NCBI GenBank assembly: GCA_025774935.1
Contig: JALGZK010000007.1
Span: forward strand, 38,395 to 102,394
DNA length: 64,000 nucleotides
Reading direction: 5' to 3'
DNA from: a bacterium
GTDB lineage: Bacteria > Joyebacterota > Joyebacteria > Joyebacterales > Joyebacteraceae
Shown: positions 38,173 to 54,454 of the stretch, piece by piece
Position numbering within the stretch: the stretch's first letter is position 1
Layout of the letters: each line of letters starts with the position of its first letter
Translations under genes and position numbers: made by a program
The notes under the pieces: model-generated
The model's database searches: none
What the model was told of the DNA's origin: nothing
What the model saw: only the letters and a program-made list of their open reading frames with translations

Positions 38173-41100
38173 TCAACGGGCGGCGGCCGCCACCTCTGAG
38201 GGCTCCGCCCGCTCCGGACGCTCTCCCCGGAGGCGCGACTCCATCCGCTCCCGGCACTGGTGAACGAACGCCTCGAGCCTGACCATCTCGGTCGACTGCT
38301 CGAGCCCGTCGTAGGCGATCTTGAGAACGGGGATGTTCTCGTCCTTCTGGACCTTCGTGAGGAGCGCGTTCACGACCGCGCCGGGCATGCAGTTGAAGGG
38401 GTGGAGGTTCACGAGGCCATCGCAGTTCGCGTGGATGTACTCCATGGCCCTTCCTACGGAGAGGACCATCTCGCCTCCGCGCACCTCCGGAACGAGGTAG
38501 TCGCGAGCGGCGTGGATGACGTCGTTCGTCGGGGCCTCATCGTGGAAGCGCCGGACGGCCCCCTCGAACTCCTTCAGGATCTTCTGCTTGTCGCGCTCCT
38601 GCACGAACTGCGTGACCCTCTCCTTCGCGAGGAGCTTCCAGTCTCCGTCTTCCCGAGCCTCGCGCTTGCGGCTCCAGTTGATGTAGTTGAGCCACTCCTC
38701 GAACGGCGGCGCCACGGCCTCTCCTCCGAGCGCCTCGATCTTCCTGATCACCGAGTTGTTCACGTACTCGTTCGAGCGAACGAAGATCTCGCCGACGATG
38801 CCGATGAGCGGCCGTCGCTCGGAGCGGTCGACCTCGACCGCCTCGAACTCCCGCCGCGCCTCACGCGCGAGCGCCTCGAGATCGCCCTTGGTCTCGATGA
38901 CGTCCTGCGCGAGACCCAGGTACTTCTGGTAGACCGCGTCCGTATCGCCCGAGTGAACCTCGTACGGGCGCGTCTCGCGGAGGAGCTTCTGGATCGAGTC
39001 GACGAAGACGATGCCACGCCACGCCAGGCTCCGGAAGTTCCGTCCGAGGTCGGCGGTGGTCTTGTGGTACTCCTTCGTCTGGTCGAGAAGCACGAGCGGG
39101 ATGTCGTCGTAGCCGAGGTCGTCGAGGACGAGACGCTGGAACCTGCAGTACTGGCCGAACCGACAGGGACCGAACGCCGTCGGCATGAGGAACGCCGTCG
39201 CGTCGCGGTCGAAGTCCGGCGAGTTGATGTGCCTCAGGAAGTCACCCGTCGTGATGACGCACGGATAACACTCCTTCCCGGACGTGTGAGCGCGGCCGAG
39301 CGTGCGGCTCTCCTCGTCGCTGATGGGCATCTGGCGCGCGTCGACGCCGTGCGCCCGCATGGCGGCGGCCACCACGTGGCCGTGGTCGTCCATGTGGGGG
39401 ATGAAGACGGTACGCTTCGTCTGGGACGCGGGCTGGGTGCGTTCGCCGGCGGGTAGTAGCCTCGGTTCCTCCGCCACCCCGCTCTTCCGCACTCCCGCGA
39501 GGCTGTCGAGGAACGCCTCGCAGCGGGTGATCGCGCCGACGTCGGCGGAGTGCTCGTCGACCTCCAGCGTGAGGCAGGGCTTCTTCCCGAGCTCGCGCTC
39601 CACGTACTTCATGATGAACGAGTCCGGTCCGCACCCGAAGTTCGTGATGTAGACCGGGTAGAGGCGCGGGTCGCGTTCGATGATCCTGACACCCGCGAGG
39701 ATCCGCTGCCCGTACTTCCAGTACATGTGCGGGTAGTCGTCCGTCACGTCCTCGCTCCCGATCGGGAGCATGTCCAGCGGGATTGAGAGCACTCCCAGGT
39801 TCCGGAGCTTCTCGGGGATGTTCATGTTCAGGCCCGGATCGCACCCGTTGTACGAGCGGCTGACGATCACGAGCGCAAGCTCGTCGTCGTCGAGCTGCGC
39901 GAGGAGCTCCGCTCCACGCTCCTGGAGCATGGCGTTGAACCGCTCCTGTGCGGCGAACGCCTCGCTGATCGCGTGGTTCGCCCGGTCCCGCGGGACACCG
40001 AGCTTGAGGAGCATCGTCTCGAGGTCGTGGCGCACCGCACGCTCTCCCCGCGACATGTGGAGGATCGGGAGCACGAGCTTCGACTCCCAGTCGACGTCCT
40101 CCATCGCGGCCTTCGCCATGAAGGGGACCGCCTGAACGTACGGGCACGTGAACGAGTTCGTCGTCGGTTCCTTCTCGTTCGGCATGTCGACGATCGTCGG
40201 CAGGAAGATGTGGTCGACGTCCTTCTCGACGAGGTCGCGGATGTGGCCGTGCGAGACCTTGATGGGGAAGCAGGTCTCGGCCGCCACTTCCTCGATTCCG
40301 TCCTGGATGAGCGAGCGGTTCGTCGCGCTCGATGTGACGACGTCGAACCCGGCCTCCGTGAAGAGCGCCTTCCACATCGGAAGGAACTCCCACGTGTGTG
40401 TCATCTGCGGGATCCCGATCGTCTTCCCGATGGGGTCGCCCGGCCTGCCCTTCGAGTAGGCGGTCCTCAAGTACTTCAGGCGGTCCGTGAACGGGCGCGG
40501 AAGGTCGCCTCCCGCCTTCGTCTCCGACTCGTCGTACTTGCCGCAGCGGTCGCCGTAGCGGAGCACGCGCTCGCCACCGTCGCCTTCGACCGTCACGACA
40601 CGGATCTCGCAGTCGTTCGGGCAGTCGTGGCATACGAACGCGTCGAACTCGTAGTTCACTCCCCTGAGGTCAAACCCCTTGAACCCCGTCTCCTCGCCGG
40701 TCTCGTCGTACCAGTCGCGGGCGATGAGCGCCATGCCGATCGCGCCCATGACATCGTGATGCGGCGGGATTGTGATCTCTTTGCCGAGGAGGCTCTCCAT
40801 CGCCGCCTTGATGCCCCTGTTGTACGCCGTTCCGCCCTGGAAGAGGATGACGTCGCCGATCGGTCGTCCCGAGACGACGCGGTTCAGGTAGTTCTGGATG
40901 ATCGAATAGCACAGCCCCGAGCAGAGGTCGTCGACGGCGGTGCCGTGGTGCCTCTTGCGGTTGACGTCGGTCTCCATGAAGACCGTGCATCGGTCGCCCA
41001 TGACGGGCGGCTCGCCGGCCGCGAGCGCAAGCCTGCCGAACTCGCCGGTCTTGAGTCCAACGCCGAGCCGTTCGGACTGCTCTTCGATGAACGAGCCGGT

Positions 41101-42453
41101 CCCCGCCGCGCAGACCTTGTTCATCGTGAAGTCTACGACCGCACCGTTCCGGAGGCTGATGTACTTCGAGTCCTGGCCGCCGATGTCGAAGATCGTATCG
41201 ACGTCCGGTCTCGTGAACGCGCCGCCCGTGGCGTGCGCTGTGATCTCGTTCTTGACGACGTCGGCGCCGATGAAGTCGCCCGTGAGGTATCGACCCGACC
41301 CGGTCGTGGCGCAGCCGCGGACGCGCACGCGTCCCTTCCCGCCGCGCTCCTCGAGCGAGGTCCCGACCCTGTAGAGCGACTCGGTCACCGCGGCGAGCGG
41401 ACGCCCGCCGGTCATGTAGTACTCGCGCCCGAGGACGCGGCCCTCGGAGTCGACGGCGACCACGTTCGTCGAGATCGAACCGACGTCGACGCCGACGAAG
41501 ACGTCGACCGGACCCTCGCCCTCCGGGAACGGATCGGGCTCCGTGCGGATCTCGTACCCGTCGTCTACGAGCATCTTGTGAGTCGCGCCGCCCGCGTGGT
41601 GCTCGGCGCCGAGGTATTCGCGGATCGGCTCGAGCGAGTCGATCGTCCCGAGCTCCCCGCGTTCCTTCCTGGCGAGAACCGCTCCGATCGCTCCCATCGA
41701 GGCGTAGTGCTCGGGGATGACGAGCTCGCCGTCGCCGAGCTCCAGGATCTCGGTGAACGCCCTGACCATTCCGGCGTTGGCCGCCACGCCGCCCTGGAAC
41801 GCGATGCGGGGGAGGAGCTCCTTTCCCTTCCCGACGACGGCGACCAGGTTCCTCGCCATCGCGAAGCAGAGGCCCGCGACGATGTCGTAGTCCGGGGTCC
41901 CTTCCTGCTGGAGGTGGATCATGTCGCTCTTCGCGAAGACGGAGCAGCGCCCCGCGATCCGCGGGACGTGAACGCTCTTTAGAGCCAGCTCGCCCCACTC
42001 CTCCTCGATGCTGATGCCGAGTCGCGAGGCCTGCTGGTCGAGGAACGACCCGGTCCCCGCCGCACAGAGCGAGTTCATCGCGAAGTCGCGCGTGTGGACG
42101 CGCCCGGACTCCGGGTCCTTCTCGAGAAGGATGATCTTCGAGTCCTCGCCGCCGATCTCGAGGATCGTGCGGACGTCGGGATGGAGGGTGGCGGTGGCGG
42201 TCGCGTGGGCGACGATCTCGTTCAGGGGCTCGATCCCGTAGAGCTCGCCGAGGATCGCCGTGCCGGCGCCGGTCAGCGCCACGCCCTTGATCCGGTCGAG
42301 CGGGACGGTAGAGGAGAGCTCCCCGAGAGCCTCGAGGGCGGCCTTCGTAGGCTTCCCTAGAGTGCGTACGTACCGTTCGCTCACGACGTTCAGGTCGTCG
42401 TCGAGCAGCACCAGGTTGAGGCTGATGGAGCCGATGTCGATCCCGAGGTACAC
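38173..42453 (-). CDS. giant BadF/HgdC-type activase fused to HgdB-like dehydratase domains
   Basis: 1426 residues from a GTG with AGGGAGGTCGC upstream. Two ASKHA ATPase domains of the BadF/BcrA/HgdC type lie in tandem: domain 1 (about 1-270: YLGIDIGSISLNLVLLDD, CAAGTGSFLDQQASRLGI, GRCSVFAKSDM) and domain 2 (about 312-575: VGVDVGSISTNVVAVDS, CAAGTGSFIEEQ, RCTVFMETD). Each retains the Cys pair that binds the shared [4Fe-4S] cluster. A DUF2229 region (about 665-900) and an HgdB-like 2-hydroxyacyl-CoA dehydratase-like region (about 1030-1400, with GKECYPCVITTGDF) follow. The family couples ATP hydrolysis to low-potential electron transfer. Such all-in-one proteins are known in anaerobes; the substrate is unclear. 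Confidence 0.9.
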   Translation of the reverse strand: MYLGIDIGSISLNLVLLDDDLNVVSERYVRTLGKPTKAALEALGELSSTVPLDRIKGVALTGAGTAILGELYGIEPLNEIVAHATATATLHPDVRTILEIGGEDSKIILLEKDPESGRVHTRDFAMNSLCAAGTGSFLDQQASRLGISIEEEWGELALKSVHVPRIAGRCSVFAKSDMIHLQQEGTPDYDIVAGLCFAMARNLVAVVGKGKELLPRIAFQGGVAANAGMVRAFTEILELGDGELVIPEHYASMGAIGAVLARKERGELGTIDSLEPIREYLGAEHHAGGATHKMLVDDGYEIRTEPDPFPEGEGPVDVFVGVDVGSISTNVVAVDSEGRVLGREYYMTGGRPLAAVTESLYRVGTSLEERGGKGRVRVRGCATTGSGRYLTGDFIGADVVKNEITAHATGGAFTRPDVDTIFDIGGQDSKYISLRNGAVVDFTMNKVCAAGTGSFIEEQSERLGVGLKTGEFGRLALAAGEPPVMGDRCTVFMETDVNRKRHHGTAVDDLCSGLCYSIIQNYLNRVVSGRPIGDVILFQGGTAYNRGIKAAMESLLGKEITIPPHHDVMGAIGMALIARDWYDETGEETGFKGFDLRGVNYEFDAFVCHDCPNDCEIRVVTVEGDGGERVLRYGDRCGKYDESETKAGGDLPRPFTDRLKYLRTAYSKGRPGDPIGKTIGIPQMTHTWEFLPMWKALFTEAGFDVVTSSATNRSLIQDGIEEVAAETCFPIKVSHGHIRDLVEKDVDHIFLPTIVDMPNEKEPTTNSFTCPYVQAVPFMAKAAMEDVDWESKLVLPILHMSRGERAVRHDLETMLLKLGVPRDRANHAISEAFAAQERFNAMLQERGAELLAQLDDDELALVIVSRSYNGCDPGLNMNIPEKLRNLGVLSIPLDMLPIGSEDVTDDYPHMYWKYGQRILAGVRIIERDPRLYPVYITNFGCGPDSFIMKYVERELGKKPCLTLEVDEHSADVGAITRCEAFLDSLAGVRKSGVAEEPRLLPAGERTQPASQTKRTVFIPHMDDHGHVVAAAMRAHGVDARQMPISDEESRTLGRAHTSGKECYPCVITTGDFLRHINSPDFDRDATAFLMPTAFGPCRFGQYCRFQRLVLDDLGYDDIPLVLLDQTKEYHKTTADLGRNFRSLAWRGIVFVDSIQKLLRETRPYEVHSGDTDAVYQKYLGLAQDVIETKGDLEALAREARREFEAVEVDRSERRPLIGIVGEIFVRSNEYVNNSVIRKIEALGGEAVAPPFEEWLNYINWSRKREAREDGDWKLLAKERVTQFVQERDKQKILKEFEGAVRRFHDEAPTNDVIHAARDYLVPEVRGGEMVLSVGRAMEYIHANCDGLVNLHPFNCMPGAVVNALLTKVQKDENIPVLKIAYDGLEQSTEMVRLEAFVHQCRERMESRLRGERPERAEPSEVAAAAR

Positions 42454-42843: not shown

Positions 42844-44544
42844 ATGCTCGCGCGCGAAAACCGCCGATTCGCGGGTCGGTACGGGGCTTTTGGGTGGTCG
42901 ATCATGATCGGACTCGCGGCTCTGGCCTGGCTGGTGGTCCGATCCGGACGTAGGCCGTCACGGCTCGTCTACCCCTGCCAGCGTGCTGCCGCGTCCACGT
43001 CGTGGATGTTCCTCGGCGTCCCGTTCGCGGGATTCATAACCTCGGAGCGGTGGCGCCGGCCGGCGCTCTGGATCGCCGGCATCGCGGTCGCCGCCCTGGC
43101 CTTCATCTTCCTCGGAGTCCCCGCGCTCAGGATGCTCGACGCCGAGATCTCCGCATCGGCGCTCTCGGCTCAGGCGGAGCGCGTCCCCGCCTGGTCGGGG
43201 AGGGCAGCGAATCTCCCGGGCCGGGTCGTTCACGTCCGCGATACGGACGCGACATTCTGGGACTACGGGACGGACTGGTACGGCGACTACATCGACCAGG
43301 ACGTGGTCACCGCCATGGTGACCGAGGGCCTCCTCACGCTGACCGGAACCCAGAGCGTTCACAGCGCCTGGCAGGTGCTCATCCCGGACTTCGAGCCCGG
43401 GCAGAGGCTCGCCATCAAGGTGAACTTCAACAACGTGACGAGTCTCCCTCCGGGCGACGACATCGACGCCGTCATCGAGCCTGTGAACGCCCTTCTCGGC
43501 GGGCTCATCGACTACGGGTTCGCGCCCTCGGACATCACCGTCTTCGACGTCACGAACACCATCTACCACTCGGGGCTCATCCCCCAACGGTTCATCGACG
43601 GTTGCGACTACCCCGGCGTCAACTTCGAGGGATGGGTGACGAACGGCGTGTCGTTCAGCAGCACGGATGCGATCGTATTCAACCCGCCCTCGGGACCGGG
43701 AATCAGCAACCGCCGGATTGCGAGGTGCCTCGCGGAGGCGGACTACCTGATCAACATGCCGATCTCAAAGGTCCACGACTACGCCGGTCTGACCCTCACG
43801 TTCAAGAACCACTTCGGCTCGTTCAACCGGTGCGACTACGCTCACAACTACGTCTTCACCTCGAGCCCGTACTGGTCTCCGGACTACAGCCCACTCGTCG
43901 ACATCTGGCTGAACGAGCACTTCGGCGGCAAGAACGTGCTCATCCTCAACGACCTCCTCTTCGGCAACTGGGAGCACCTCTTCGGTCCTCCCACGCCGTG
44001 GCCGTCGTTCGGGAACGGGGCACCGAACAGCATCCTGCTTGCCACGGATCCGGTCGCCATCGACTGCGTGGCGGCGGACTTCCTCGCAGTTGAGGGGAAC
44101 GTGCCCGCGGGCGCCGACCAGTACCTCGTGCTCGCGTCCGCCGCGGGCCTCGGCGTCTTCGAGCGCGCGCCCTCGCCCGGGGTCTACTCGATCATCGACT
44201 ACACCTACCTCGAGGGTCCCTTCGACGGGACAGGGGTGAACGGGGGAGGCCCCGAGGCAGCGCGGCCGCAGATGCTCACGCTGCCGCAGAACCCGGTCTC
44301 CGATACCGCGTCGATCCACCTGGAGCTTCCGATGGGCTACGCGGGGAAGGCGACGGTCCGGCTCTACGACGTGCGCGGCCGCCTGGTTCGCACGCTCGTC
44401 GAGGACGAGACTCTGACGGGCTCGCGCGACCTCTCGTGGGACGGCCGCGACGACAGCGGGGTCCGTGCCGCGAGCGGTGTCTACTGGATCACGCTCGACT
44501 ACGAGGGAACGCGCGAGACGGCGCGCGTCGTGCTCGTGCGCTGA
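42844..44544 (+). CDS. secreted DUF362 protein with C-terminal FlgD-like domain
   Basis: 566 residues from an ATG behind CGGAGGTGGCACC. Two hydrophobic segments (about 15-32 and 72-95) give a complex membrane-anchored N-terminus. The DUF362 domain spans about 150-430 (GQRLAIKVNFNNVT, FAPSDITVFDVTNTIY, NMPISKVHDYAGLTLTFKNHFGS). DUF362 proteins often bind Fe-S clusters or act near redox enzymes, but no CxxC clusters are seen here. The last 85 residues form a FlgD-like beta domain (VRLYDVRGRLVRTLVEDETL, WDGRDDSGVRAASGVYW) ending in VVLVR. This domain is used for surface or secretion sorting in FCB-type bacteria. Function otherwise unknown. Confidence 0.78.
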   Translation: MLARENRRFAGRYGAFGWSIMIGLAALAWLVVRSGRRPSRLVYPCQRAAASTSWMFLGVPFAGFITSERWRRPALWIAGIAVAALAFIFLGVPALRMLDAEISASALSAQAERVPAWSGRAANLPGRVVHVRDTDATFWDYGTDWYGDYIDQDVVTAMVTEGLLTLTGTQSVHSAWQVLIPDFEPGQRLAIKVNFNNVTSLPPGDDIDAVIEPVNALLGGLIDYGFAPSDITVFDVTNTIYHSGLIPQRFIDGCDYPGVNFEGWVTNGVSFSSTDAIVFNPPSGPGISNRRIARCLAEADYLINMPISKVHDYAGLTLTFKNHFGSFNRCDYAHNYVFTSSPYWSPDYSPLVDIWLNEHFGGKNVLILNDLLFGNWEHLFGPPTPWPSFGNGAPNSILLATDPVAIDCVAADFLAVEGNVPAGADQYLVLASAAGLGVFERAPSPGVYSIIDYTYLEGPFDGTGVNGGGPEAARPQMLTLPQNPVSDTASIHLELPMGYAGKATVRLYDVRGRLVRTLVEDETLTGSRDLSWDGRDDSGVRAASGVYWITLDYEGTRETARVVLVR

Positions 44545-44712: not shown

Positions 44713-44741
44713 TTGAACGGCACCGCGGGCTGAGCTATGCT
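44713..44741 (+). promoter_or_regulatory. sigma-70-type promoter for the lipid-synthesis-like operon
   Basis: TTGAAC at 44713-44718, a 17-nt spacer and TATGCT at 44736-44741, 45 nt before the ATG at 44786. No terminator or comparable promoter is seen until 53532, so it likely drives eight genes. Confidence 0.65.
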
Positions 44742-44785
44742 CGACAGCGACGCAGGCCCGGAGGCCGTATCAGAGGAGCACGCCG

Positions 44786-45970
44786 ATGGCTCTCTTCGAC
44801 AAGTGCGACGAGTTCAGCCGCTGGATAGAGTCGTTGAAAGAGAGGCGCGAGTTCTTCTACCTGCGAGAGTTCGATCCCGCCGCTTCGCCCGTCGTCTCGA
44901 TGGGCGGCAAGAAGCTCATCATGCTGGGTTCCAACAACTACCTCGGTCTGGCCACTCACCCCCGGGTGGTCGAGGCGACGGCTCTCGCCGTTCGCGAGTA
45001 CGGCACGGGTGCATGCAGCTCACGCGTGCTCACGGGCACGACTGGCCTTCACGCGCGGCTCGAGAAGCGGCTCGCTGAGTTCAAGGGAACCGAGGACGCT
45101 GTCGTCTTCAGCACCGGCTTCATGACGATGATGGGCACCATAACGGCGCTGACGGGAGAGGGAGACGTCGTCCTGAGTGACGAGTTCAACCACGCGAGCA
45201 TCGTCGAGGGCTGCCGCCTGACGGGCGCCGAGGTCAGAGTCTATCGGCACAACGACATGAGCGATCTCGAGGAGAAACTAGCGTCATGCGAGCCCGAGCA
45301 GGACAAGCTCATCGTTACCGACGGCGTGTTCAGCATGAAGGGAACCCTCGCGAACCTTCCAGGAGTCAAGAAGCTCGCCGACGAGTACGACGCCAGGGTG
45401 ATGGTCGACGACGCTCACGGCACCGGGGCGATCGGCCCGAGCGGGCGGGGCACGCTGGAGCACTTCGGGATGGAGGGCGAGGTCGATCTGATCTGCGGCA
45501 CGTTCAGCAAGTCGCTCGGAACGATCGGCGGGTTCGTAGGAGCAAGGTCGGATGTCGTCACGTTCCTCAAGCTCAGGTCTCGCCCGTTCATCTTCTCGGC
45601 GAGCCCGCCGCCGTCGTCCATGGCGACGGTCCTCGCGTGCCTCGACGTTCTGGAGGACGAACCGGAGCTCCTCGCGCGCCTCCGAGAGAACACGGCGTTC
45701 GTGAAGGAGGGGCTCTCGGAGCTCGGGTTCCGGCTCGAAGAGACCGTCACTCCGATCATCCCGGTCCTCATCGGGGAGGACTCGAAGACGTTCCAGATGG
45801 CCGGCGGCCTGGAGGACGAGGGCGTCATCGTCAACCCGGTCGTGGCGCCGGCCGTGCCCCCGGACTCATCGCTCATCCGCGTCAGCGTGATGGCGAGCCT
45901 GAACACTCAGGAACTGGAGACGGCACTCGAGAAGTTCGGCGTCGTCGGTCGGAGACTGGGGATCATCTGA
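44786..45970 (+). CDS. alpha-oxoamine synthase, serine palmitoyltransferase-like
   Basis: 394 residues, full length. Fold-type I PLP signatures: EFNHASIVEG (His136), VDDAHGTGAIG (Asp208, His211), and GTFSKSLGTIGGF with Schiff-base Lys242. The family condenses an amino acid with an acyl-CoA or acyl-ACP (KBL, BioF, HemA, SPT). The C-terminal VNPVVAPAVPPDSSLIRVSVMA and the HNDMSDLEEKL region look more like bacterial serine palmitoyltransferases than like KBL, as I remember those families. It heads an operon with acyl-CoA ligase, ketoreductase-type SDR and lipid kinase, which fits sphingoid-base synthesis. 2-Amino-3-ketobutyrate ligase is the alternative. Confidence 0.8.
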   Translation: MALFDKCDEFSRWIESLKERREFFYLREFDPAASPVVSMGGKKLIMLGSNNYLGLATHPRVVEATALAVREYGTGACSSRVLTGTTGLHARLEKRLAEFKGTEDAVVFSTGFMTMMGTITALTGEGDVVLSDEFNHASIVEGCRLTGAEVRVYRHNDMSDLEEKLASCEPEQDKLIVTDGVFSMKGTLANLPGVKKLADEYDARVMVDDAHGTGAIGPSGRGTLEHFGMEGEVDLICGTFSKSLGTIGGFVGARSDVVTFLKLRSRPFIFSASPPPSSMATVLACLDVLEDEPELLARLRENTAFVKEGLSELGFRLEETVTPIIPVLIGEDSKTFQMAGGLEDEGVIVNPVVAPAVPPDSSLIRVSVMASLNTQELETALEKFGVVGRRLGII

Positions 45971-45971
45971 C

Positions 45972-46937
45972 ATGCCGAGTTCCGCCCATCCCGTCTGGAC
46001 TCCCGGCTTCATCCGTGCCTACGTCGTCACGATGCGACCCTACCTTCTCTTTGTCTCCGGCGCGGCCGGGCTCGTCGGTCTCTCGTTCATCCCCGACCCG
46101 GCCACGGGACGCGTCGTCCTCGCCTTCGTTCCGCTCTTCCTCTCGTACGGACTCGGTCAGGCGCTGACCGACTGCTTCCAGACCGACACCGATTCGGTGT
46201 CCGCGCCGTACCGGCCGCTCGTGAGAGGCATCGTGACTCGACGTCAGATCCTCACGGTGAGTCTCGTGGGACTGACGGCGGTCGTCCTGGTGCTCGCGTA
46301 CCTGAACCCGGTGATCCTCGTCCTCGGGTTCGCGGCGGTGGCGGGGCTACTCACCTACACCTACTTCAAGCGCACGTGGTGGGGCGGACCGCCGTGGAAC
46401 TCGTGGATCGTCGCGATCCTCCCGATCATGGGGAGGCTCGTCGACAGGCAGTACCGGTTGGCCATCCCGGGAGAGGATGGTCCGGCGTTCACGTTCGCCG
46501 TCCTCTCCGTCTTCTTCGGGTACATGAACTTCGTCGTGATGGGTTACTTCAAGGACATCTCCGCGGACCGCGAGACGGGGTACCGCACCTTCCCGGTCGT
46601 CTTCGGCTGGCGGCCGGCCGCAGTGTACGGGGACGTGACGGCAGCGACAGCGGCCGCCTTCGCCGGGCTCGTGCTGGCGTTCGTGGGAGCGAACCCGTGG
46701 AGCCTCGTCATGTACGTCGCGGGACTCGTGCTCCACGTCCGCGCTCAGATCGCGATGCACCACACGAGGAACGAGAGCGAGACCGGCGGCCCCATCGCAA
46801 GCGGCGTCCGCGCGCTCGTCCTCTACTGCCTCGCTATGGTCGCGGCGGGGAGACAGGAGTGGACACCGTTCCTCGTGGTGTTCTACGTGCTGTTCGAGCT
46901 GGTTCTCAAGATGCGTCCCGAGCGAGGTCAGGTCTAG
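45972..46937 (+). CDS. UbiA-family prenyltransferase
   Basis: 321 residues starting 1 nt after the previous stop. About eight to nine membrane helices. The first Asp-rich motif reads ALTDCFQTDTD (Asp67, Asp72, Asp74), followed by the usual SAPYRPLVRG. The second reads GYFKDISADRETGYRTFPVVFG (near residues 190-211). These are the Mg-diphosphate sites of UbiA enzymes, which move isoprenyl groups onto aromatic or lipid acceptors. Its presence inside what looks like a sphingolipid-type operon is unexpected; it could prenylate or otherwise modify the operon's product, or act on a phosphate-activated lipid. Confidence 0.85.
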   Translation: MPSSAHPVWTPGFIRAYVVTMRPYLLFVSGAAGLVGLSFIPDPATGRVVLAFVPLFLSYGLGQALTDCFQTDTDSVSAPYRPLVRGIVTRRQILTVSLVGLTAVVLVLAYLNPVILVLGFAAVAGLLTYTYFKRTWWGGPPWNSWIVAILPIMGRLVDRQYRLAIPGEDGPAFTFAVLSVFFGYMNFVVMGYFKDISADRETGYRTFPVVFGWRPAAVYGDVTAATAAAFAGLVLAFVGANPWSLVMYVAGLVLHVRAQIAMHHTRNESETGGPIASGVRALVLYCLAMVAAGRQEWTPFLVVFYVLFELVLKMRPERGQV

Positions 46938-46964
46938 GCCCGAGAGAAGACCGATCGGAACTCT

Positions 46965-47888
46965 GTGATAGTATTCGTGAACACGCACGCCAGCTACGGC
47001 CGTGCCGCCCGGCGGTGGCAGAGGGTCGTGCCTGAGATCGAGAAGCTCGTGGGCGGCTTCGAGGTCAAGGGGATCGACTCGCCCGAGGGGGTTGCGGCGA
47101 CTCTGCGCGAGGGAGTGTCCAGGGGCGAGCACACTGTCGTCGCAGCGGGAGGAGACGGGACGGTGAACATGCTCGTGAACGCGATCATGGCGCTCGGGGA
47201 CGGCGAGGAGGTCACGCTCGGCGCGGTGGGTCTCGGGTCGAGCAACGACTTCCACAAACCGTTCCGGTCCGACGCGTTCGTGGCGGGCGTACCCGTCCGA
47301 CTTGACTGCGCCGCGGCCAGGCCGCACGATGTCATCCGCATCGATACGGAAGACGACGATGGTCACCAAGGAACACGCTACGCTATCATCAACGCGAGTC
47401 TCGGCATGACGGCCGAGGCCAACGCGGCGTTCAACGCCCCCACCGGCCTCACCCGGGCCGCGCGCAGGCTCTCGGTAGACGCCGCCATCGCGGCGTCGGT
47501 GCTGCGGACGCTCGCGACCTACCGGGACGTCGGCTGCCGCATGGCGATCGACGGAGAGGACCTTGGGACATTCTCGGTCTCGAACCTCGGCGTGATCAAG
47601 AACCCACACTTCGCCGGCTCGTTCTGCTACGACATGCCCATCGAGCCGGACGACGGAAACCTCGGGGTCAACCTCTGCGAGCGGCTCACCCGGTTCCAGG
47701 CGCTGGCCACGCTCGCGGCGCTCAGGCGAAGGCGCTTCCGCGGGCGGCCGAAGACGAGGTCGTGGACGGGACAGAGGGTGTCCGTGGAGGGCGATCGCAC
47801 CTTCGCTCTCGAGACGGACGGGGAAGTCACCGAGACCCGTCGCGCCGAGTTCCACGTCGTCCCCGGGAGGATACGGTGCTGCTCGTGA
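46965..47888 (+). CDS. diacylglycerol/sphingosine-kinase-like lipid kinase
   Basis: 307 residues from a GTG with a weak GGAA ribosome site. The DAGK catalytic signature is AAGGDGTVNMLVNAIM (GGDGT at 62-66), with GLGSSNDFHK for the GTGND-like loop and a beta-sandwich C-terminal domain (about 130-305). DAGK-type kinases phosphorylate lipid alcohols including diacylglycerol, sphingosine and long-chain bases. Position between UbiA and a ThiL-like gene, all on one strand with short gaps, suggests it phosphorylates the long-chain base or polyprenyl product of the operon. Confidence 0.82.
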   Translation: MIVFVNTHASYGRAARRWQRVVPEIEKLVGGFEVKGIDSPEGVAATLREGVSRGEHTVVAAGGDGTVNMLVNAIMALGDGEEVTLGAVGLGSSNDFHKPFRSDAFVAGVPVRLDCAAARPHDVIRIDTEDDDGHQGTRYAIINASLGMTAEANAAFNAPTGLTRAARRLSVDAAIAASVLRTLATYRDVGCRMAIDGEDLGTFSVSNLGVIKNPHFAGSFCYDMPIEPDDGNLGVNLCERLTRFQALATLAALRRRRFRGRPKTRSWTGQRVSVEGDRTFALETDGEVTETRRAEFHVVPGRIRCCS

Positions 47889-47951
47889 CCGGCCTCCGCC
47901 GCCGACGAACGCCGAGGGCCCGCGGAACCGACCGATGACCAGGACATGCCG

Positions 47952-49010
47952 ATGACCCGCATGGACGACATACTCGAGAACGTCGCGATCGACGCCTGGA
48001 CCAGGAGGCTCTCTCGCGAGCCGCGGCAGGCGAACGCCCCGCACGAGAGCGACGCGGAGCTGCTCGAGCTTCAGGCCGCGCCCGAGCACTACCTCGCGAT
48101 CACGATCGACACGGTTGCCGAGGAGATCCTGACCGGGCTCTACCTCGAGCCGTACACCATGGGCTGGGTGACGGTGATGGCTTCCCTCTCCGATCTTGCG
48201 GCCGTGGGCGCCGACCCGCTCGGGGTCGTCGTGTCGGTCTCCGCTCCGGCGGGAGGGGAGGAGAGCCTCGTCGAGGGAACGGCGCGCGGGATGGAGGACG
48301 CCTGTCGCTCGCTGGGCGTCTTCATCCTGGGCGGGGACTCGAATGCGACGCCGACCGTCTCGCTCACGGGCTGCGCAGTCGGGATCGTCCCGCGGACGGA
48401 GGCGATCACGAGGCGCGGACTCCAGCCCGGGGACTCGGTCTTCCTCACGGGACGGGCGGGCTCCGGCAACGCGTTCGGGCTCGTGCGGCTCGGGGGGTTC
48501 GACGGCGAGCTCTTCCCGGAGGATGAATACCGTCCGATCGCCATGATCGAAGCCGGGCGGGCGCTCAGAGGAGTCGCGACGGCGTGCATGGATACGAGTG
48601 ACGGTGTCCTGACAACTCTCGACCAGCTGACGCGACTGAACGGCCACGGGTTCGAGATCGACTGCGACTGGGCCTCGATCCTCTGCGACGAGGCGCTCAG
48701 GGTCTGCGAGCGCACGGGAGCGCCGCCGTGGATGATGCTCGCCGGCCCGCACGGCGAGTTCGAGCTCGCCTTCACGGTGCCCTCCTCCTCGGCTGAGGCG
48801 ATCGCCAGCGCAGCGGGAGGCTGGGACTCACCGCCGCTTCGGCTGGGAACGGTCGTGGAGCGCCCGGCGATCACGCTCCGGTTGCCGTCGGGAGAGAAAG
48901 TCGACGTCGACATGGCGCCTCTGCGCAACCTCCTCGAGACGACGGAGGGACACCTCGATCGCTACCTGCGCGAGTTCAGAGAGCTCGGGAGGTCATGGGG
49001 TCTTGAGTAG
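47952..49010 (+). CDS. AIR-synthase/ThiL-like protein with altered ATP-site motifs
   Basis: 352 residues; the ATG at 47952 has AGGA at proper distance, unlike the ATG six bases earlier. The PurM/ThiL fold is apparent: VTVMASLSDLAAVGADPLGVVVSV, GDSVFLTGRAGSGNAFGL and ACMDTSDGVLTTLDQLTRLNGHGFEID. Two ThiL hallmarks are changed. The N-terminal GDDAAVL is replaced by a HESDAELLEL-like stretch, and the GGEDYELLF loop reads GPHGEFELAF. Thiamine-phosphate kinase activity is therefore doubtful; a repurposed kinase or scaffold within the operon is suggested. The next gene starts inside its last codons. Confidence 0.72.
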   Translation: MTRMDDILENVAIDAWTRRLSREPRQANAPHESDAELLELQAAPEHYLAITIDTVAEEILTGLYLEPYTMGWVTVMASLSDLAAVGADPLGVVVSVSAPAGGEESLVEGTARGMEDACRSLGVFILGGDSNATPTVSLTGCAVGIVPRTEAITRRGLQPGDSVFLTGRAGSGNAFGLVRLGGFDGELFPEDEYRPIAMIEAGRALRGVATACMDTSDGVLTTLDQLTRLNGHGFEIDCDWASILCDEALRVCERTGAPPWMMLAGPHGEFELAFTVPSSSAEAIASAAGGWDSPPLRLGTVVERPAITLRLPSGEKVDVDMAPLRNLLETTEGHLDRYLREFRELGRSWGLE

Positions 49011-50796
49011 CGCGACGGACACCATACACGGAGCGGTCTTCAGAACCGCGGCGGCCCACCCCAAGCGGACGGCCCTCATGTACAGAAGCGGGGGTGCGTA
49101 CGTTGGCGTTTCCTACGCCGATCTCACGGGAGCAGTCAAGCTGGCGGCCGAGAGGATCGCGGCCTTCGGAATCCGGAAGGGCGATGCCGTCGGCATCTTC
49201 TCCCCGAACCGCCCGCAGTGGATCGTCGCGGACCTGGCCGCTCTCACACTCGGCGCGATCGTCGTCCCCGTCTACAACACACTCCCGCCCGACCGGCTCA
49301 AGTACATCGTGAACGACTCCGGCATGCGGATGCTCTTCGTAGGTGATCCGGACCTCTTCAGCAAGGTGGGCAGCATCCGCGACGAGACTCCCGGCCTCGA
49401 GGAGGTGATCTTCCTCGACGACTGGGGAATCCGCTTCGGCTCGTCCGGCACTCGCAACGCGACGGACTCCGCGTCCGCCCGGCGTGGCGCTGCGGACGAC
49501 GTCGCGGCCTCCGACGTCGCAACGATCGTCTACACGTCCGGGACGCGGGGAGTGCCGAAAGGTGTCGAGCTGACGCACGGCAACATCGTCTCGAACGTCA
49601 ACGCGCTCATCGCGAGGGGGCGGATCAGTTCCGACGACACCACCGTCTCTTATCTCCCTCTGGCGCACATGTTCGAGCGGACCTGCGGCCACTACGTCTT
49701 CCTCTTCGCCGGGGGCACGGTTGCCTACGCCGATAGACGCGAGACGGTCGTCGAGGACGTCGGAGCAGTTCGGCCGACGGTGCTCATCGCCGTCCCCCGC
49801 GTTCTCGAGAAGGCGTACGAGATGGTCCGGGCGAGGGTCGAGGGAGGACCGTGGGTCCGTCGTGGGATGGTTCACCGGGCGTTCTCGCTCCTCAACGCGC
49901 GCGCCAATCGGCTGTACCGCGGGCAGCGAGTGCCGGTCTGGCTCAGCGTGCGCTGCCGGATGTACGACGCTCTCGTCGCCTCGCGCTTCCGGAACATCGC
50001 CGGGGGGAGGCTGCGTCTCGTCGTCTCCGGCGGGGCGCCGCTCGACAGGCGGACCGGGAAGGTCCTGAGCGTCCTCGGCTTCGGGATCGTGGAGGGTTAC
50101 GGGCTGACCGAGGCGTCGCCCGTCGTCTCTTGCGGCGACCTCGAGAACCACAGACTGGGAACGGTGGGGAGACCGCTCGATGGCGTCGAGGTGATGATCG
50201 CCGACAACAGCGAGATCATGGTCCGCGGGCCGAACGTAATGAAGGGCTATCTGAACAAGCCGGAGGAGACCGCGGAGGTCCTCGACAGCGACGGGTGGCT
50301 GCACACGGGCGACCTCGGGAGGATCGACGACGTCGGCAACCTCGTGGTGACGGGAAGGGACAAGGAGATCATCGTCACGTCCTACGGCAAGAACGTCTGT
50401 CCGACGTCGGTGGAGGAGAGAATCGCGCGCAGTCCGTACATCGAGCAGGTCGTCGTGTTCGGGGACAACCGGAAGGCGATCGTCGCTCTCGTCGTTCCCG
50501 ACCGTGAAGAGATCGAGCGGCACGCCCTGAAGCAAGGCATCACCTGGACATCGTACGAGACGCTCATCGAGCACTACGCCGTCATGGAGCTCCTGAACGC
50601 AGAGATCGAACGCGCGAACGCCGACGCGGCGTCGTTCGAGCGAGTGGTCGCCTTCTCGCTCCTGCCTGACCCGTTCACTCAGGAGAACCGGATGCTCACG
50701 CCGACGCTCAAGACCCGCCGGCAGACGATCGGGGAGATACACGCTGCTCTCATCGAGAAGCTCTACGAGGAGTTGGAGGCGAAGGTTGCGCATTGA
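49003..50796 (+). CDS. long-chain fatty-acid CoA ligase-like AMP-forming enzyme
   Basis: 597 residues; TTG start overlapping the previous stop by 8 nt, with GGGAGG upstream. Adenylate-forming family: A3 loop YTSGTRGVPKGVELTHGN (about 177-194; the usual second Thr is Arg), VVSGGAPLDRRTGKVL, EGYGLTEASPVVS, and GWLHTGDLGRIDDVGNLVVTGRDKEIIVTSYGKNVCP with the catalytic hinge and NVCPTSVEE. The layout matches FadD15/ACSL-type long-chain ligases. In the operon it would supply the acyl-CoA or acyl-ACP for the oxoamine synthase, or for N-acylation of a base. Confidence 0.9.
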   Translation: MSSATDTIHGAVFRTAAAHPKRTALMYRSGGAYVGVSYADLTGAVKLAAERIAAFGIRKGDAVGIFSPNRPQWIVADLAALTLGAIVVPVYNTLPPDRLKYIVNDSGMRMLFVGDPDLFSKVGSIRDETPGLEEVIFLDDWGIRFGSSGTRNATDSASARRGAADDVAASDVATIVYTSGTRGVPKGVELTHGNIVSNVNALIARGRISSDDTTVSYLPLAHMFERTCGHYVFLFAGGTVAYADRRETVVEDVGAVRPTVLIAVPRVLEKAYEMVRARVEGGPWVRRGMVHRAFSLLNARANRLYRGQRVPVWLSVRCRMYDALVASRFRNIAGGRLRLVVSGGAPLDRRTGKVLSVLGFGIVEGYGLTEASPVVSCGDLENHRLGTVGRPLDGVEVMIADNSEIMVRGPNVMKGYLNKPEETAEVLDSDGWLHTGDLGRIDDVGNLVVTGRDKEIIVTSYGKNVCPTSVEERIARSPYIEQVVVFGDNRKAIVALVVPDREEIERHALKQGITWTSYETLIEHYAVMELLNAEIERANADAASFERVVAFSLLPDPFTQENRMLTPTLKTRRQTIGEIHAALIEKLYEELEAKVAH

Positions 50797-51616
50797 GGGG
50801 AAGAGCGTGATCGTGACGGGTGCTTCGTCCGGCATCGGGCGCGCGCTCGCGCTGGCCTTCGCCGGGAAGCGGGCGGCGGTCACGGCCGCGGCGAGGAGGG
50901 CTGACAGGCTCGAAGAACTCGTGCGCGAGGCTGCCGAGAGGTTCCCCGACGCTCCACCCGTCGTGCCGGTCGAGTGCGACGTCACCCGGGAGGCAGACGT
51001 CTCGTGGCTCGTAGGGGGCACGGTCGAGCGGACGGCCGCGGTCGACGTCCTCGTCAACAACGCCGGGGTCGGGCTCTACGGCGAGACGGAGCTCGTCTCG
51101 ATCGACGACTTCCAAGAGCTTCTGTCCGTGAACCTCCTCGGGGCGGTCCGCTGCATCCAGGAGGTCGTCCCGTTCATGAGGACCCGCGAGAGCGGCGTCA
51201 TCGTGAACGTCGCCTCGGTCGCGGCGCTCTACGGCGTGCCCTACCTCTCCGCGTACTGCGCGAGCAAGGCCGCCGTCGCGGCCGTGAGCCAGAGCCTCCG
51301 TGCGGAACTCGACGGAAGCGGGATTCGCGTGATGATCGCCTACCCGGGGTACACCGACACGGAGTTCTTCGAGCACGAGAAGGTGGTCGGAGGCGCGCGG
51401 CGACCGCCCGGGCCGTTCGCGCCGCCTGACCGGGTCGCCGCGGGAGTCGTGAGGGCGGTCGAGAGGAACGTCGGGGACGTCTACCTGACGGCGCAGGGAA
51501 GAGCCCTGAGCGTTCTGCGCGGTCTGGCCCACCCGATCGTCGAGCGTGCGATGCGGAAGATCGCGCGCGAGCTCAGAGGCGAGGACGAACCCTCGCCTGA
51601 CGACGGGAAGCAGTAG
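50786..51616 (+). CDS. short-chain dehydrogenase/reductase, ketosphinganine-reductase-like
   Basis: 276 residues from a TTG with GGAGG upstream, overlapping the previous gene by 11 nt. Classical SDR: cofactor loop TGASSGIGRAL (11-21), NNAGVGLYGE (91-100), catalytic Ser144, Tyr157, Lys161 in AYCASKAAV. The Ala/Arg-rich helix after strand 2 (AAARRADRLEEL) suggests NADPH. A C-terminal tail of about 40 residues is basic and may associate with membrane. Downstream of an oxoamine synthase, an SDR would reduce the 3-keto product, as KDSR does for 3-ketodihydrosphingosine. General acyl-ketone reduction is the alternative. Confidence 0.85.
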   Translation: MRIEGKSVIVTGASSGIGRALALAFAGKRAAVTAAARRADRLEELVREAAERFPDAPPVVPVECDVTREADVSWLVGGTVERTAAVDVLVNNAGVGLYGETELVSIDDFQELLSVNLLGAVRCIQEVVPFMRTRESGVIVNVASVAALYGVPYLSAYCASKAAVAAVSQSLRAELDGSGIRVMIAYPGYTDTEFFEHEKVVGGARRPPGPFAPPDRVAAGVVRAVERNVGDVYLTAQGRALSVLRGLAHPIVERAMRKIARELRGEDEPSPDDGKQ

Positions 51617-51639
51617 CGAGGAAGAGGGGAGGCCGCACC

Positions 51640-53058
51640 ATGGGCAAGCCCAAGCTCCAGATCATCGTTCTCTTCCAGAACCTCGGAGATCAGGAGGCGT
51701 ACTTCGCGCGGTCGCCCGCGCCGCCTCTCGCCGGCGCACTCCTCGCGGGCCTGACGCCGCCCGTCGTAGAGGTCGAGCTCCTCCACGAGATGATCCGCCC
51801 CATCGACTACGATACGGACGCCGACTTTGTCGCCCTGAGCTTCATGGACTTCTGCGCGCCTCACGCTTACGACGTGGCCGCGAGGTTCCGGAAGCTCGGG
51901 AAGACCGTTGTAGCGGGGGGGAAGTACGCCTCGACGTTTCCCGAACAGGTGCTGCCTCACGTCGACTCGGTCGTCGTCGGCGAGGCCGAGCGCGTCTGGC
52001 CGGAAGTGGTCGAGGACATGGTGGCGGGGCGGCTCAAGAAGCGATACGACGCCCCCTTCGCGCCGCCCCTCGATGGCATCCCCCCGCCTCGATACGACCT
52101 CGTCGAATCCGACTTCGACGTTCCGGTCGTCACCGAGGCCACACGAGGGTGTCCCTACACGTGCAGTTTCTGCCAGCTCACGATCGAGCGCGCCCCCTAC
52201 CGCATGCGGCCCATCGGCGACGTCATCCACGACCTTACCGCGACCTCGAGGCTCCCGTTCCACAAGCGGAAGATCGCGATGCTCTACGACAACAACCTGG
52301 GTGGAGACATCGGGTACGCCAAGGAGCTCCTGGCGGAGATCGCGAAGCTCAAGCTCTGGGCGCTAGGTACTCAGTTCAGCTTCGACTGCCTCCACGACGA
52401 CGAGTTCGTCGATCTCCTGGCGCGAGCGAACTGCACGATGGCGTTCATCGGACTCGAGTCGCTGAGCGAACCGAGTCTCGCGTCGGTGCACAAGAAGCAC
52501 AACAAGGTGGAGGAGTACAAGGAGCTGTTCGTCAAACTCAAGCACCACGGCATCATGACGATGACGGGACTCATACTCGCCCTCGACGAGGATACTCCGG
52601 AGTACTACAGAGATCTTCCCGCGCAGCTGGATGAGATCGAGCCGAGCGTCATCCTGCTCTCCATCTCGATACCGATCCCCGGGACGCCATTCCATCAGAC
52701 CGTTCTCGAGGAGGGGAGGATCATCGACGAGAACCTCGCGCACTACGAGGGAGACCACCTGGTCATCACGCCGAAGCACGTCACCCCGGAGCAGGTGGCC
52801 GAGACATTCCAGCGCGTCAACAGGTCGTTCTACTCGAGACGGAGGATGTTCAGGAGGTGGCGGAGGCTCATCGCCGGCTACAGGTGCGCGAGGAACCCCT
52901 GGGCTTGGACCTTCCACTCGGGGATTCTGTCCTACGTGTTCTTCAAGCTGTCGATCTTCCAGAAGGACCACGCCGAGCAGCGCGTGTATCCCCTGAGCGC
53001 ATCCAAGGCGCTCACCAACACGACCGGAAGGAAGTCAGCACCACCAACTGGGGGCTGA
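51640..53058 (+). CDS. B12-binding-domain radical SAM enzyme
   Basis: 472 residues, ATG behind AGAGGGGAGG. The N-terminal B12-binding-like Rossmann domain (about 1-135) contains VALSFMDFCAPHAYDVAARFRKLGKTVVAGGKYAS but no obvious DxHxxG cobalamin ligand. The radical SAM domain begins at TRGCPYTCSFCQL, with Cys171, Cys175 and Cys178 binding [4Fe-4S]. A C-terminal helical tail (about 395-472) holds basic and aromatic residues. This class includes methylases and ring-forming enzymes of hopanoid, bacteriochlorophyll and lipid pathways. Within the operon it could methylate or couple alkyl chains; the reaction is unknown. Confidence 0.85.
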   Translation: MGKPKLQIIVLFQNLGDQEAYFARSPAPPLAGALLAGLTPPVVEVELLHEMIRPIDYDTDADFVALSFMDFCAPHAYDVAARFRKLGKTVVAGGKYASTFPEQVLPHVDSVVVGEAERVWPEVVEDMVAGRLKKRYDAPFAPPLDGIPPPRYDLVESDFDVPVVTEATRGCPYTCSFCQLTIERAPYRMRPIGDVIHDLTATSRLPFHKRKIAMLYDNNLGGDIGYAKELLAEIAKLKLWALGTQFSFDCLHDDEFVDLLARANCTMAFIGLESLSEPSLASVHKKHNKVEEYKELFVKLKHHGIMTMTGLILALDEDTPEYYRDLPAQLDEIEPSVILLSISIPIPGTPFHQTVLEEGRIIDENLAHYEGDHLVITPKHVTPEQVAETFQRVNRSFYSRRRMFRRWRRLIAGYRCARNPWAWTFHSGILSYVFFKLSIFQKDHAEQRVYPLSASKALTNTTGRKSAPPTGG

Positions 53059-53102
53059 AGCGCAACGTCGCAACGCCGCGACGGCGCGGAATGGAGGTAG
53101 CG

Positions 53103-53501
53103 ATGGCCCGGTTCGCTCGCTTTACACTCGTCCTTGCGGCGACAGTCGAGGTCGTCTTCCGCGGGATCCCGGCGCTCTTCGGGTCCCCGGCGGTGGCCAG
53201 CATCTTCAACCTGGAGTACCTCCCCGGGTTCATTCCCTACGTGCACGCGTTCGGGGCCGTCATGATCTGTCTAGGCGTGCTCTTCTTCATCGCGTCGAAG
53301 GAGCCGGAGAAGCACGTCCTCGTCATCAACATCGCCATCATGAGGTTCTCTCTCGGCATCCTCGCGCAGCTCGGCTCGTACCTCCAGCTCGGATCACTGG
53401 CCATCTTCTGGTGGATTCACATGGCCGTCGATGTTGTTCTCGTCGTCCTGCTCGTCCTGGCGCGATCGAGCGCCAAGACCCTCGCCTCAAAGGCGGCCTG
53501 A
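53103..53501 (+). CDS. small four-helix membrane protein, unknown
   Basis: 132 residues from the ATG at 53103 behind GGAGGTAGCG. Four hydrophobic helices (about 5-25, 44-65, 74-93 and 102-121), last residues basic/Ala-rich (RSSAKTLASKAA). It resembles the small DoxX-like or DUF4149-like proteins in size and topology only. It is the last gene of the operon beginning at 44786, 45 nt after the radical SAM gene, and is followed by a 13-bp terminator. It may act in transport or as an accessory to the membrane enzymes. Confidence 0.6.
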   Translation: MARFARFTLVLAATVEVVFRGIPALFGSPAVASIFNLEYLPGFIPYVHAFGAVMICLGVLFFIASKEPEKHVLVINIAIMRFSLGILAQLGSYLQLGSLAIFWWIHMAVDVVLVVLLVLARSSAKTLASKAA

Positions 53502-53531
53502 GAATCCCTCGCAGAATGTGACTGAGTCGCA

Positions 53532-53560
53532 CCGGGGCCGCTGCACCGCAGCGGCCCCGG
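53532..53560 (+). terminator. operon terminator, GGCCGCTGC family
   Basis: CCGGGGCCGCTGC, ACC loop, GCAGCGGCCCCGG: 13 bp, 31 nt after the last gene of the lipid-type operon. The rest of the gap 53502-53848 holds only the promoter at 53633 and a long leader. Confidence 0.75.
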
Positions 53561-53848: not shown

Positions 53849-54454
53849 ATGAAGCGCGTCTTGATCGTCGCGTCGTTCGGCGCCGTTCTGGTAGCGGCGA
53901 CCGCCGCCGTCGCCTACCCGCCGGCGGTGGGGATCGCCGGCAAGAGCCCTTCGTGCGCCGTCTGCCACGCGGATACCGGTCCGTGGGGAGACGAGTCGAG
54001 GACAATCGTTGACATCCTGGACGGCAAGACTCGCGAGTCGCTACTCCAGGAGGACGGACGGTTCCTCCTCAGCGTGCCGCGGGGGCAGATCCGCACGGTG
54101 ATCACCGTACTCGGGCGTTCCGCGGACGACGACGCGCCCCCCCCGGTCCGAAACGCGTGGCTCTACGTGGACCCGTCGCGGATTGCGACCAACTCCTTCG
54201 GGAAGTTCGCCCCGGGATGGGACGTCAGCCTGCCGCTATCCTGTCGGATCGTGGGTGACAAGGTGCCCGAGTATCCGGGAGCGGCGGTGACGGCGCTTCC
54301 CATGAGGCTCCGCCCGGGGGACGCTGCACAGAACACCGAACTCGAGCTTCAGGTGATGCTGACCAAGGGGGAGTCGACCAAGGGGAACCCCGATGAGTGG
54401 CTCATCGCCAACTTCGTGACACGGAAGCTGGTCCTCGAGGTCACGGATCCGTAG
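53849..54454 (+). CDS. secreted protein with a single CxxCH heme-c motif
   Basis: 201 residues, ATG behind GCGAGGAGGGCAAG. Signal peptide 1-22 (ending AVAY). One heme-binding CAVCH motif (Cys36-His40) lies just after the signal. The remaining residues form a beta-rich, Pro-containing body (SIATNSFGKFAPGWDVSL-like strands). No distal Met/His ligand context can be fixed from sequence. It may be a monoheme cytochrome c or a heme-attached structural protein in the periplasm. Nothing nearby is clearly electron-transfer related. The stop is 7 nt from the convergent EF-G stop, with no terminator between. Confidence 0.6.
   Translation: MKRVLIVASFGAVLVAATAAVAYPPAVGIAGKSPSCAVCHADTGPWGDESRTIVDILDGKTRESLLQEDGRFLLSVPRGQIRTVITVLGRSADDDAPPPVRNAWLYVDPSRIATNSFGKFAPGWDVSLPLSCRIVGDKVPEYPGAAVTALPMRLRPGDAAQNTELELQVMLTKGESTKGNPDEWLIANFVTRKLVLEVTDP

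Follow-up and report, generated by a model that had tools for sequence, protein, structure and literature searches.

What does a bacterium make when a gene resembling serine palmitoyltransferase (SPT) lies beside genes for a UbiA-family transferase, a lipid kinase and a ThiL-like protein, with no obvious ceramide synthase among its neighbours? This question is raised by positions 44713-53560 of the DNA analysed here, a 64,000-nt window (the whole stretch, whose numbering is used for all its coordinates) from a metagenome-assembled genome (MAG) of Candidatus Eisenbacteria. The listing of open reading frames (ORFs) and profile searches show eight plus-strand genes with operon-like spacing, in which neighbours overlap or lie at most 57 nt apart (Table 1), and the eight ORFs are far from what chance would give. 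An earlier note, made from the sequence alone, had described this row of eight same-strand genes with overlaps or short gaps; all of them are present, and their order recurs in relatives. Such a gene set, common to several little-known bacterial lineages, probably makes an undescribed membrane lipid. Our tentative proposal for how it does so, which we hold with less than even confidence, is a ceramide-synthase-independent pathway to a sphingoid-type lipid, built on a fixed four-gene core, in which a relay of two kinases would feed the UbiA-family enzyme.

The locus is carried by 14 of the 20 genomes sampled from the phylum: in 13 of them the synthase is at least 73% identical, and another shows the downstream half of the locus, at the end of a contig. 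In six Eisenbacteria genomes (that of the window, G001, G003, G005, G012 and G013), a single contig carries all eight genes in the same order, and they are also found in order in two WOR-3 genomes (L124 and L222), so that the gene-neighbourhood check proposed in the earlier note finds all eight together in both groups. In G014, which is rated 100% complete, a decayed remnant of the operon lies within 420 bp (L101:6006-6427, on G014:C50) and consists of fragments of the synthase (residues 3-66), the short-chain dehydrogenase/reductase (SDR; residues 70-143) and the radical SAM enzyme (residues 411-461), as expected if the locus was lost as a unit. One MAG has an apparent second copy (L120/L103, on G005:C43), for which a mixture of strains is possible. 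Scanning the GTDB species genomes (about 85,000 species) with the synthase alignment left 80 loci. All 22 synthases with at least 55% identity have the same UbiA gene adjacent or two genes downstream, followed by the diacylglycerol kinase (DAGK)-type gene and then the ThiL-like gene as far as the contig reaches, while none of the 58 synthases with 50% identity or less has such a UbiA gene. The record labels of the 22 loci are Eisenbacteria, WOR-3/Stahlbacteria, Cloacimonadota (one bin, which groups with WOR-3), Planctomycetota, Aminicenantes and one unnamed lineage; in one genome, G527, the synthase matches fall in two distant pieces. A search with the ThiL-like alignment gave matches in the Acidobacteriota (3 of 396 genomes), the WOR-3 phylum (9 of 147) and the Planctomycetota (2 of 392). 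Two of the Acidobacteriota (L208 and L209) carry the UbiA, DAGK and ThiL-like genes without an adjacent synthase, with UbiA proteins that are 57-61% identical and both kinases 38-42% identical. The trio is therefore the inner unit, which usually has the synthase as a partner. Taken together, these comparisons establish the content, order and conservation of the gene set and the family to which each gene is assigned.

The invariant core therefore consists of the oxoamine synthase, the UbiA enzyme, the DAGK-type kinase and the ThiL-like protein, and the acyl ligase, the SDR, the radical SAM enzyme and the four-helix membrane protein (TM4) are optional. The ligase gene is missing from the loci L123 and L224, and orthologues of the radical SAM enzyme (at least 62% identity) occur only alongside extended operons and are absent elsewhere in core-only genomes; the radical SAM enzyme was therefore rejected as a core member. 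The ligase and the SDR were rejected as well, since unlike the UbiA, DAGK and ThiL-like genes they are not next to the synthase in every lineage. This redraws the division in the earlier note, which had taken the ligase, reductase and kinase as the natural route and UbiA, the ThiL-like protein and the radical SAM enzyme as additions: the kinase is indeed core and the radical SAM enzyme optional, whereas UbiA and the ThiL-like protein are invariant and the ligase and SDR are optional. Other genes take up the optional places in other lineages. A DUF3419 gene and a GNAT gene stand between the synthase and UbiA in a WOR-3 locus (L126, 11236-13342) and in a Planctomycetota locus (L128, 4851-6951), and the two pairs are 49-50% identical; in L225 their place is taken by a START/polyketide-cyclase-type protein together with a hexapeptide transferase, and L262 looks similar by eye. 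DUF3419 is a Pfam family that we take to include BtaA, the aminocarboxypropyl transferase of betaine lipids, and the DUF3419-GNAT pair may possibly supply a lipid head group of a new homoserine type. The presence of a DUF3419 gene within the core agrees with lipid chemistry, and a fixed core surrounded by varied tailoring genes of lipid type is the pattern expected of a lipid pathway. That a lipid pathway is built around the core is very likely.

The synthase has the aminotransferase I/II fold, and its closest relative of solved structure is the SPT of Sphingobacterium multivorum (362 bits, compared to 299 for a Thermus BioF/KBL and 292 for a KBL), to which it is 45% identical, compared to 40-42% for KBLs. 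The lysine that binds pyridoxal phosphate (PLP), Lys242 in GTFSKS, is kept together with His136, Asp208, His211 and Arg365; the PLP lysine, the stacking histidine and the carboxylate arginine of SPT are thus all present. In a maximum-likelihood tree of 91 sequences, one characterised SPT included, the operon synthases form one clade (100/99) that is sister to the SPT-type clade, and the KBL and BioF references as well as the phylum's own KBL-like paralogues fall outside this grouping (split 100/99). All genomes of the phylum sample carry a KBL-like paralogue apart from the operon synthase, and no tdh-like neighbour was seen among the ORFs read around the operon copies. The placement in the tree and the separate paralogue led us to reject a KBL identity, in agreement with the earlier note, which had favoured an SPT-like over a threonine-catabolic enzyme and had named beforehand what would refute it: a synthase grouping with KBL and the other genes scattered in relatives, or a threonine dehydrogenase gene next door. 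Neither was found. Some carriers (L256, L258, L259 and L264) have, in addition, an ordinary SPT-like gene with an epimerase-like or GNAT-like neighbour, so the module synthase is a specialised paralogue. In the three Aminicenantes among them (L256, L258 and L259), this gene is divergent from a NAD-epimerase-like gene that looks CerR-like by eye, with similar flanks in all three; in the WOR-3 genome G023, the second SPT-like gene lies beside a GNAT-like gene.

The family models are less specific than the tree. The synthase scores below the cut-off of each NCBIfam model for SPT, KBL and BioF (456.3 bits against a cut-off of 640 for the curated SPT model NF047600), oxoamine synthases are diverse, and a survey of Black Sea genomes advises caution on homologues outside the Spt clade, which may have another activity (PMC11334938). 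These points would fit a synthase that does not form lipids, in an operon that makes a small signal or cofactor derived from an aminoketone, as CqsA or KBL do. We consider this improbable, because the partners of the synthase (an acyl ligase, a lipid kinase, DUF3419 and START-like proteins) and its position in the tree with the SPT-type clade all speak for lipids. Oxoamine synthases of other kinds were also seen in these groups. A third type, 53-54% identical, lies apart from the UbiA module of the same genomes (L260:6517-9743 and L261:5041-8164, in G535 and G539) and is paired with an acyl ligase (43-46% identical) and a further ORF. Two Eisenbacteria that lack the operon (G010 and G019; L109:7887-11462 and L110:2748-6420) have two oxoamine synthases close together, and those included in the tree group near KBL.

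The ceramide synthase bCerS, which we take to be an N-acyltransferase of the PF04339 type, is over the cut-off in none of the 20 phylum genomes, while the Caulobacter control is over it; the absence of an obvious ceramide synthase, as the earlier note had it for the operon, thus extends to the phylum sample. The operon has no epimerase-type CerR, and its reductase is a classical SDR. The known routes of bacteria rely on SPT, bCerS and CerR; Caulobacter also has a ceramide kinase, CpgB (PMC10331486), and the Rhodobacteria route has specialised acyl carriers (PMC9386255). A locus of the Caulobacter type (SPT, bCerS, CerR, acyl ligase and CpgB; PMC10331486, PMC9386255) resembles the present operon in its SPT-type synthase, acyl-CoA ligase, reductase and GGDG lipid kinase. 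It differs in that the operon lacks a bCerS-family protein and has a classical SDR in the place of the epimerase-type CerR, and UbiA and the ThiL-like protein, which are obligatory in the present module, have no part in known routes. A classical-SDR ketosphinganine reductase is known from Bacteroides (BT_0972; PMC9278070), with the same TGxxxGxG and YxxxK motifs, but BT_0972 is not clustered with SPT, whereas the SDR described here, a predicted reductase, lies inside the operon. Since sphingolipid routes are known to include an SPT-like synthase, an SDR, a ligase and a lipid kinase (PMC9278070, PMC10331486), the operon might be an ordinary ceramide-type pathway in which UbiA and the ThiL-like protein serve an unrelated, co-transcribed process. 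This is very unlikely: the co-conservation already disfavours it, with UbiA, DAGK and ThiL-like genes next to the synthase in every lineage, which the ligase and SDR are not, and the second ordinary SPT-like gene of some carriers and the lack of a bCerS-family match count against it as well. Searches of the open-access literature gave no description of UbiA or ThiL-like partners of an SPT-type synthase, no relevant paper on Eisenbacteria and sphingolipids, and no described counterpart of the module.

The lipid kinase has the DAGK_cat and YegS_C domains, and the alignment shows that its GGDGTVN and DGE motifs are kept. The ThiL-like protein has the fold and the acidic ATP/Mg motifs of the AIRS/PurM-like superfamily, with D36, D55, D83, D131, D216 and D219 invariant in the alignment, and is 20-27% identical to ThiL in structural alignment. 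It differs from ThiL in score and in sequence. The operon copy of every carrier is below the TIGR01379 cut-off of 184.15 bits (that of the window scores 155.8), whereas 18 of the 20 phylum genomes have a separate ThiL above it (287 bits for that of the host genome, at G000:C38), and on both grounds we rejected ThiL itself as its identity. The motif of canonical ThiL is GGEDYELL; in the ThiL-like proteins, the stretch GGEDYELLF has turned into GPHGEFELxF. A changed substrate-side motif next to invariant acidic motifs makes an altered acceptor likely, and by its sequence the protein probably phosphorylates a phosphomonoester that is not thiamine monophosphate (TMP).

The UbiA enzyme matches PF01040 with 90 bits. 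In nearly all members read, including those of the genomes with the trio only, its first aspartate motif is TDxFQxDTD in place of NDxxDxxxD, with the asparagine and one aspartate replaced; the second motif, DxxxD, is intact as KD[IVL][ST]AD. The altered motif means that a prenyl donor is not to be taken for granted. By sequence, the nearest relatives are archaeal geranylgeranylglyceryl phosphate (GGGP) geranylgeranyltransferases and chlorophyll synthase, and the model (predicted local distance difference test, pLDDT, 91) is structurally closest to ApUbiA (Z 24.4) and digeranylgeranylglyceryl phosphate (DGGGP) synthase (Z 23.0), and less close to the membrane phosphoribosyltransferase 8j8j (Z 16.0). 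The last of these would suit an enzyme like decaprenyl-phosphate phosphoribosyltransferase, which would add phosphoribose from phosphoribosyl pyrophosphate (PRPP) to a lipid phosphate made by the DAGK-type kinase, with the ThiL-like protein phosphorylating the head group, and this would account for a lipid kinase beside UbiA. We think it hardly likely, given the higher Z score to users of prenyl diphosphates, sequence neighbours that belong to another branch, and another UbiA of the host genome (L007, motif NDLIDVQRDREHPEKKKRPL) that by eye is more like the phosphoribosyl type.

The same neighbours support the main rival to the relay, in which UbiA would act as a DGGGP synthase and join geranylgeranyl or a longer prenyl diphosphate, through an ether or C-N bond, to a long-chain-base phosphate provided by the synthase, SDR and DAGK-type kinase; the product would be a prenylated sphingoid phosphate with an isoprenoid second chain, and the ThiL-like protein would make a diphosphate head group. 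The acceptor of DGGGP synthase is a lipid phosphate, bacteria of the Fibrobacteres-Chlorobi-Bacteroidetes (FCB) group have isoprenoid ether lipid enzymes that include DGGGP synthase (PMC7852524), and the lack of bCerS over the cut-off in the phylum sample also agrees with such a product. The operon shares the UbiA fold with the archaeal and FCB pathway and plausibly a lipid-phosphate acceptor, but the locus showed no gene for glycerol-1-phosphate lipids, the aspartate motif is altered, and the context is that of an amino lipid. The replaced NDxxDxxxD motif and the lack of a clear reason for ThiL as an inseparable partner of UbiA make this rival rather unlikely. It has in common with the relay that a second chain or group is added without a ceramide synthase.

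The relay itself is suggested by the inner unit. The DAGK family converts a lipid alcohol to a phosphate, ThiL converts a phosphomonoester to a diphosphate (TMP to thiamine diphosphate, TPP), and UbiA enzymes displace diphosphate; a unit of exactly these three suggests the sequence alcohol, phosphate, diphosphate and UbiA transfer, and with an SPT-like synthase as partner the alcohol would most likely be a long-chain base or a derivative. In tocopherol salvage in plants, phytol kinase and phytyl-phosphate kinase likewise feed a UbiA-type transferase. The kinases belong to unrelated families, and the likeness, which lies in the proposed logic of two sequential kinases, is functional only and unproven. 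In the pathway predicted from the family assignments, the acyl ligase would make acyl-CoA, which the synthase would condense with serine or a similar amino acid to a long-chain 2-amino-3-ketone, and the SDR would reduce the 3-keto group. The DAGK-type kinase would then phosphorylate a lipid hydroxyl, most likely that of the long-chain base, the ThiL-like enzyme would turn the lipid phosphate into the diphosphate, and the UbiA-family enzyme would attach a second moiety to the activated lipid, thereby adding the chain or head group that is contributed by ceramide synthase elsewhere. Finally, the radical SAM enzyme and the membrane protein would tailor or place the product, and other lineages would use other tailoring pairs (DUF3419/BtaA-family with GNAT, or START-like with hexapeptide transferase).

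Several points weigh against this proposal. The known UbiA donors are allylic diphosphates or PRPP, and a saturated long-chain-base diphosphate would ionise poorly. For this reason the donor may still be an ordinary prenyl diphosphate, and the lipid diphosphate may form a head group. With the asparagine and one aspartate lost from its first motif, UbiA could bind metal weakly or in a different way. Reactions other than those of kinases are also carried out with the AIRS fold (HypE, SelD and PurM), and the structure search does not separate the ThiL-like model from these, with Z 30.8 to ThiL and 30.7 to HypE. With one characterised SPT in the tree and the narrow spread of identities given above, serine and palmitoyl-CoA are not certain substrates, and for every enzyme the assignment of substrates stays at the level of the family. 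The order and chemistry of the DAGK, ThiL-like and UbiA steps are conceivable as proposed rather than probable. To a similar, guarded degree, the core might make a new class of membrane lipid: a sphingoid-type amino lipid that receives its diphosphate from a lipid kinase and a neofunctionalised ThiL and its second chain from a UbiA-family enzyme, possibly a hybrid of sphingoid and isoprenoid. A prenylated or chain-methylated product, as the earlier note had suggested, is possible.

Among the accessory proteins, the SDR has an invariant TGxxxGxG motif and an invariant Y157/K161 pair, a motif common to most SDRs and so non-specific for 3-ketosphinganine reductase. The CxxxCxxC of the radical SAM enzyme is invariant, and its B12-binding domain scores 28.6 bits with PF02310 against a Pfam cut-off of 32.1. 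In the membrane protein, PYVHAFGAVM and FWWxHM are invariant in nine orthologues, and no family is over the cut-off; the listed ORF of 214 aa starts too early.

Table 1. Features of the operon in window coordinates, with the status of each gene and the observations on which its assignment is based.
Feature	Position	Strand	Status	Observations
Putative promoter, TTGAAC-17-TATGCT	44713..44741	+		8/12 to consensus, under scan threshold; sister genome G001 keeps TTGTAC-17-TATCCT
SPT-type alpha-oxoamine synthase	44786..45970	+	core	45% identity to S. multivorum SPT; catalytic residues kept; own clade
UbiA-superfamily transferase	45972..46937	+	core	PF01040; first Asp motif altered (TDxFQxDTD), second motif DxxxD intact
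DAGK/YegS/sphingosine-kinase-type lipid kinase	46965..47888 (GTG start)	+	core	PF00781 and PF19279; GGDGTVN intact
ThiL-like AIRS-family protein	47946..49010	+	core	155.8 bits to TIGR01379, under cut-off
Long-chain acyl-CoA ligase	49003..50796 (TTG start, 8-nt overlap)	+	accessory	PF00501 and PF23562; nearest NCBIfam is the FadD11 type
Classical SDR reductase, candidate 3-keto reductase	50786..51616 (TTG start, 11-nt overlap)	+	accessory	PF00106
B12-binding-type radical SAM enzyme	51640..53058	+	accessory	PF04055; weak PF02310
Small four-helix membrane protein, 132 aa	53103..53501	+	accessory	weak DUF4345, below cut-off
GC-rich 3' hairpin without T-run	53532..53560	+		z -3.6

Both ends of the operon, which the earlier note had given as a promoter and a terminator, were missed by the promoter and terminator scans, and their support comes from folding and from the sister species. 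The promoter appears weak but plausible, and the sister species keeps it in the same place. At the 3' end, the hairpin is real (-34.7 kcal/mol over a 56-nt stretch), but the terminator scan missed it because the T-run is absent; by eye, the sister species has a different GC-rich inverted repeat there. Directly upstream of the operon lies a gene for a DUF362 protein with a C-terminal FlgD-like sorting tail of the type IX secretion system (T9SS) type (42844-44544), and a strong hairpin (z -5.9) stands between the two. A minus-strand ORF of 1426 aa (38173-42453) begins, by eye, like a BadF/BcrA-type ATPase, and positions 53849-54454 encode a protein of 201 aa with a signal-peptide-like start, a CxxCH haem motif and no Pfam family.

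Sphingolipid surveys look for SPT together with bCerS and CerR, and in the Black Sea survey many SPT-like genes, for example in Cloacimonadota, have no bCerS or CerR nearby, for which replacement by non-homologous proteins is one of the options offered (PMC11334938). The module described here is one concrete alternative, in which an SPT-like synthase has a UbiA enzyme and two kinases as fixed partners. If the proposed chemistry is true, the module would add a further class of lipids, give a ThiL paralogue a function, and be a caution against predicting ceramides from SPT-like genes alone. Bacteria would then have a further way to a two-chain sphingoid lipid, one that does without a ceramide synthase.

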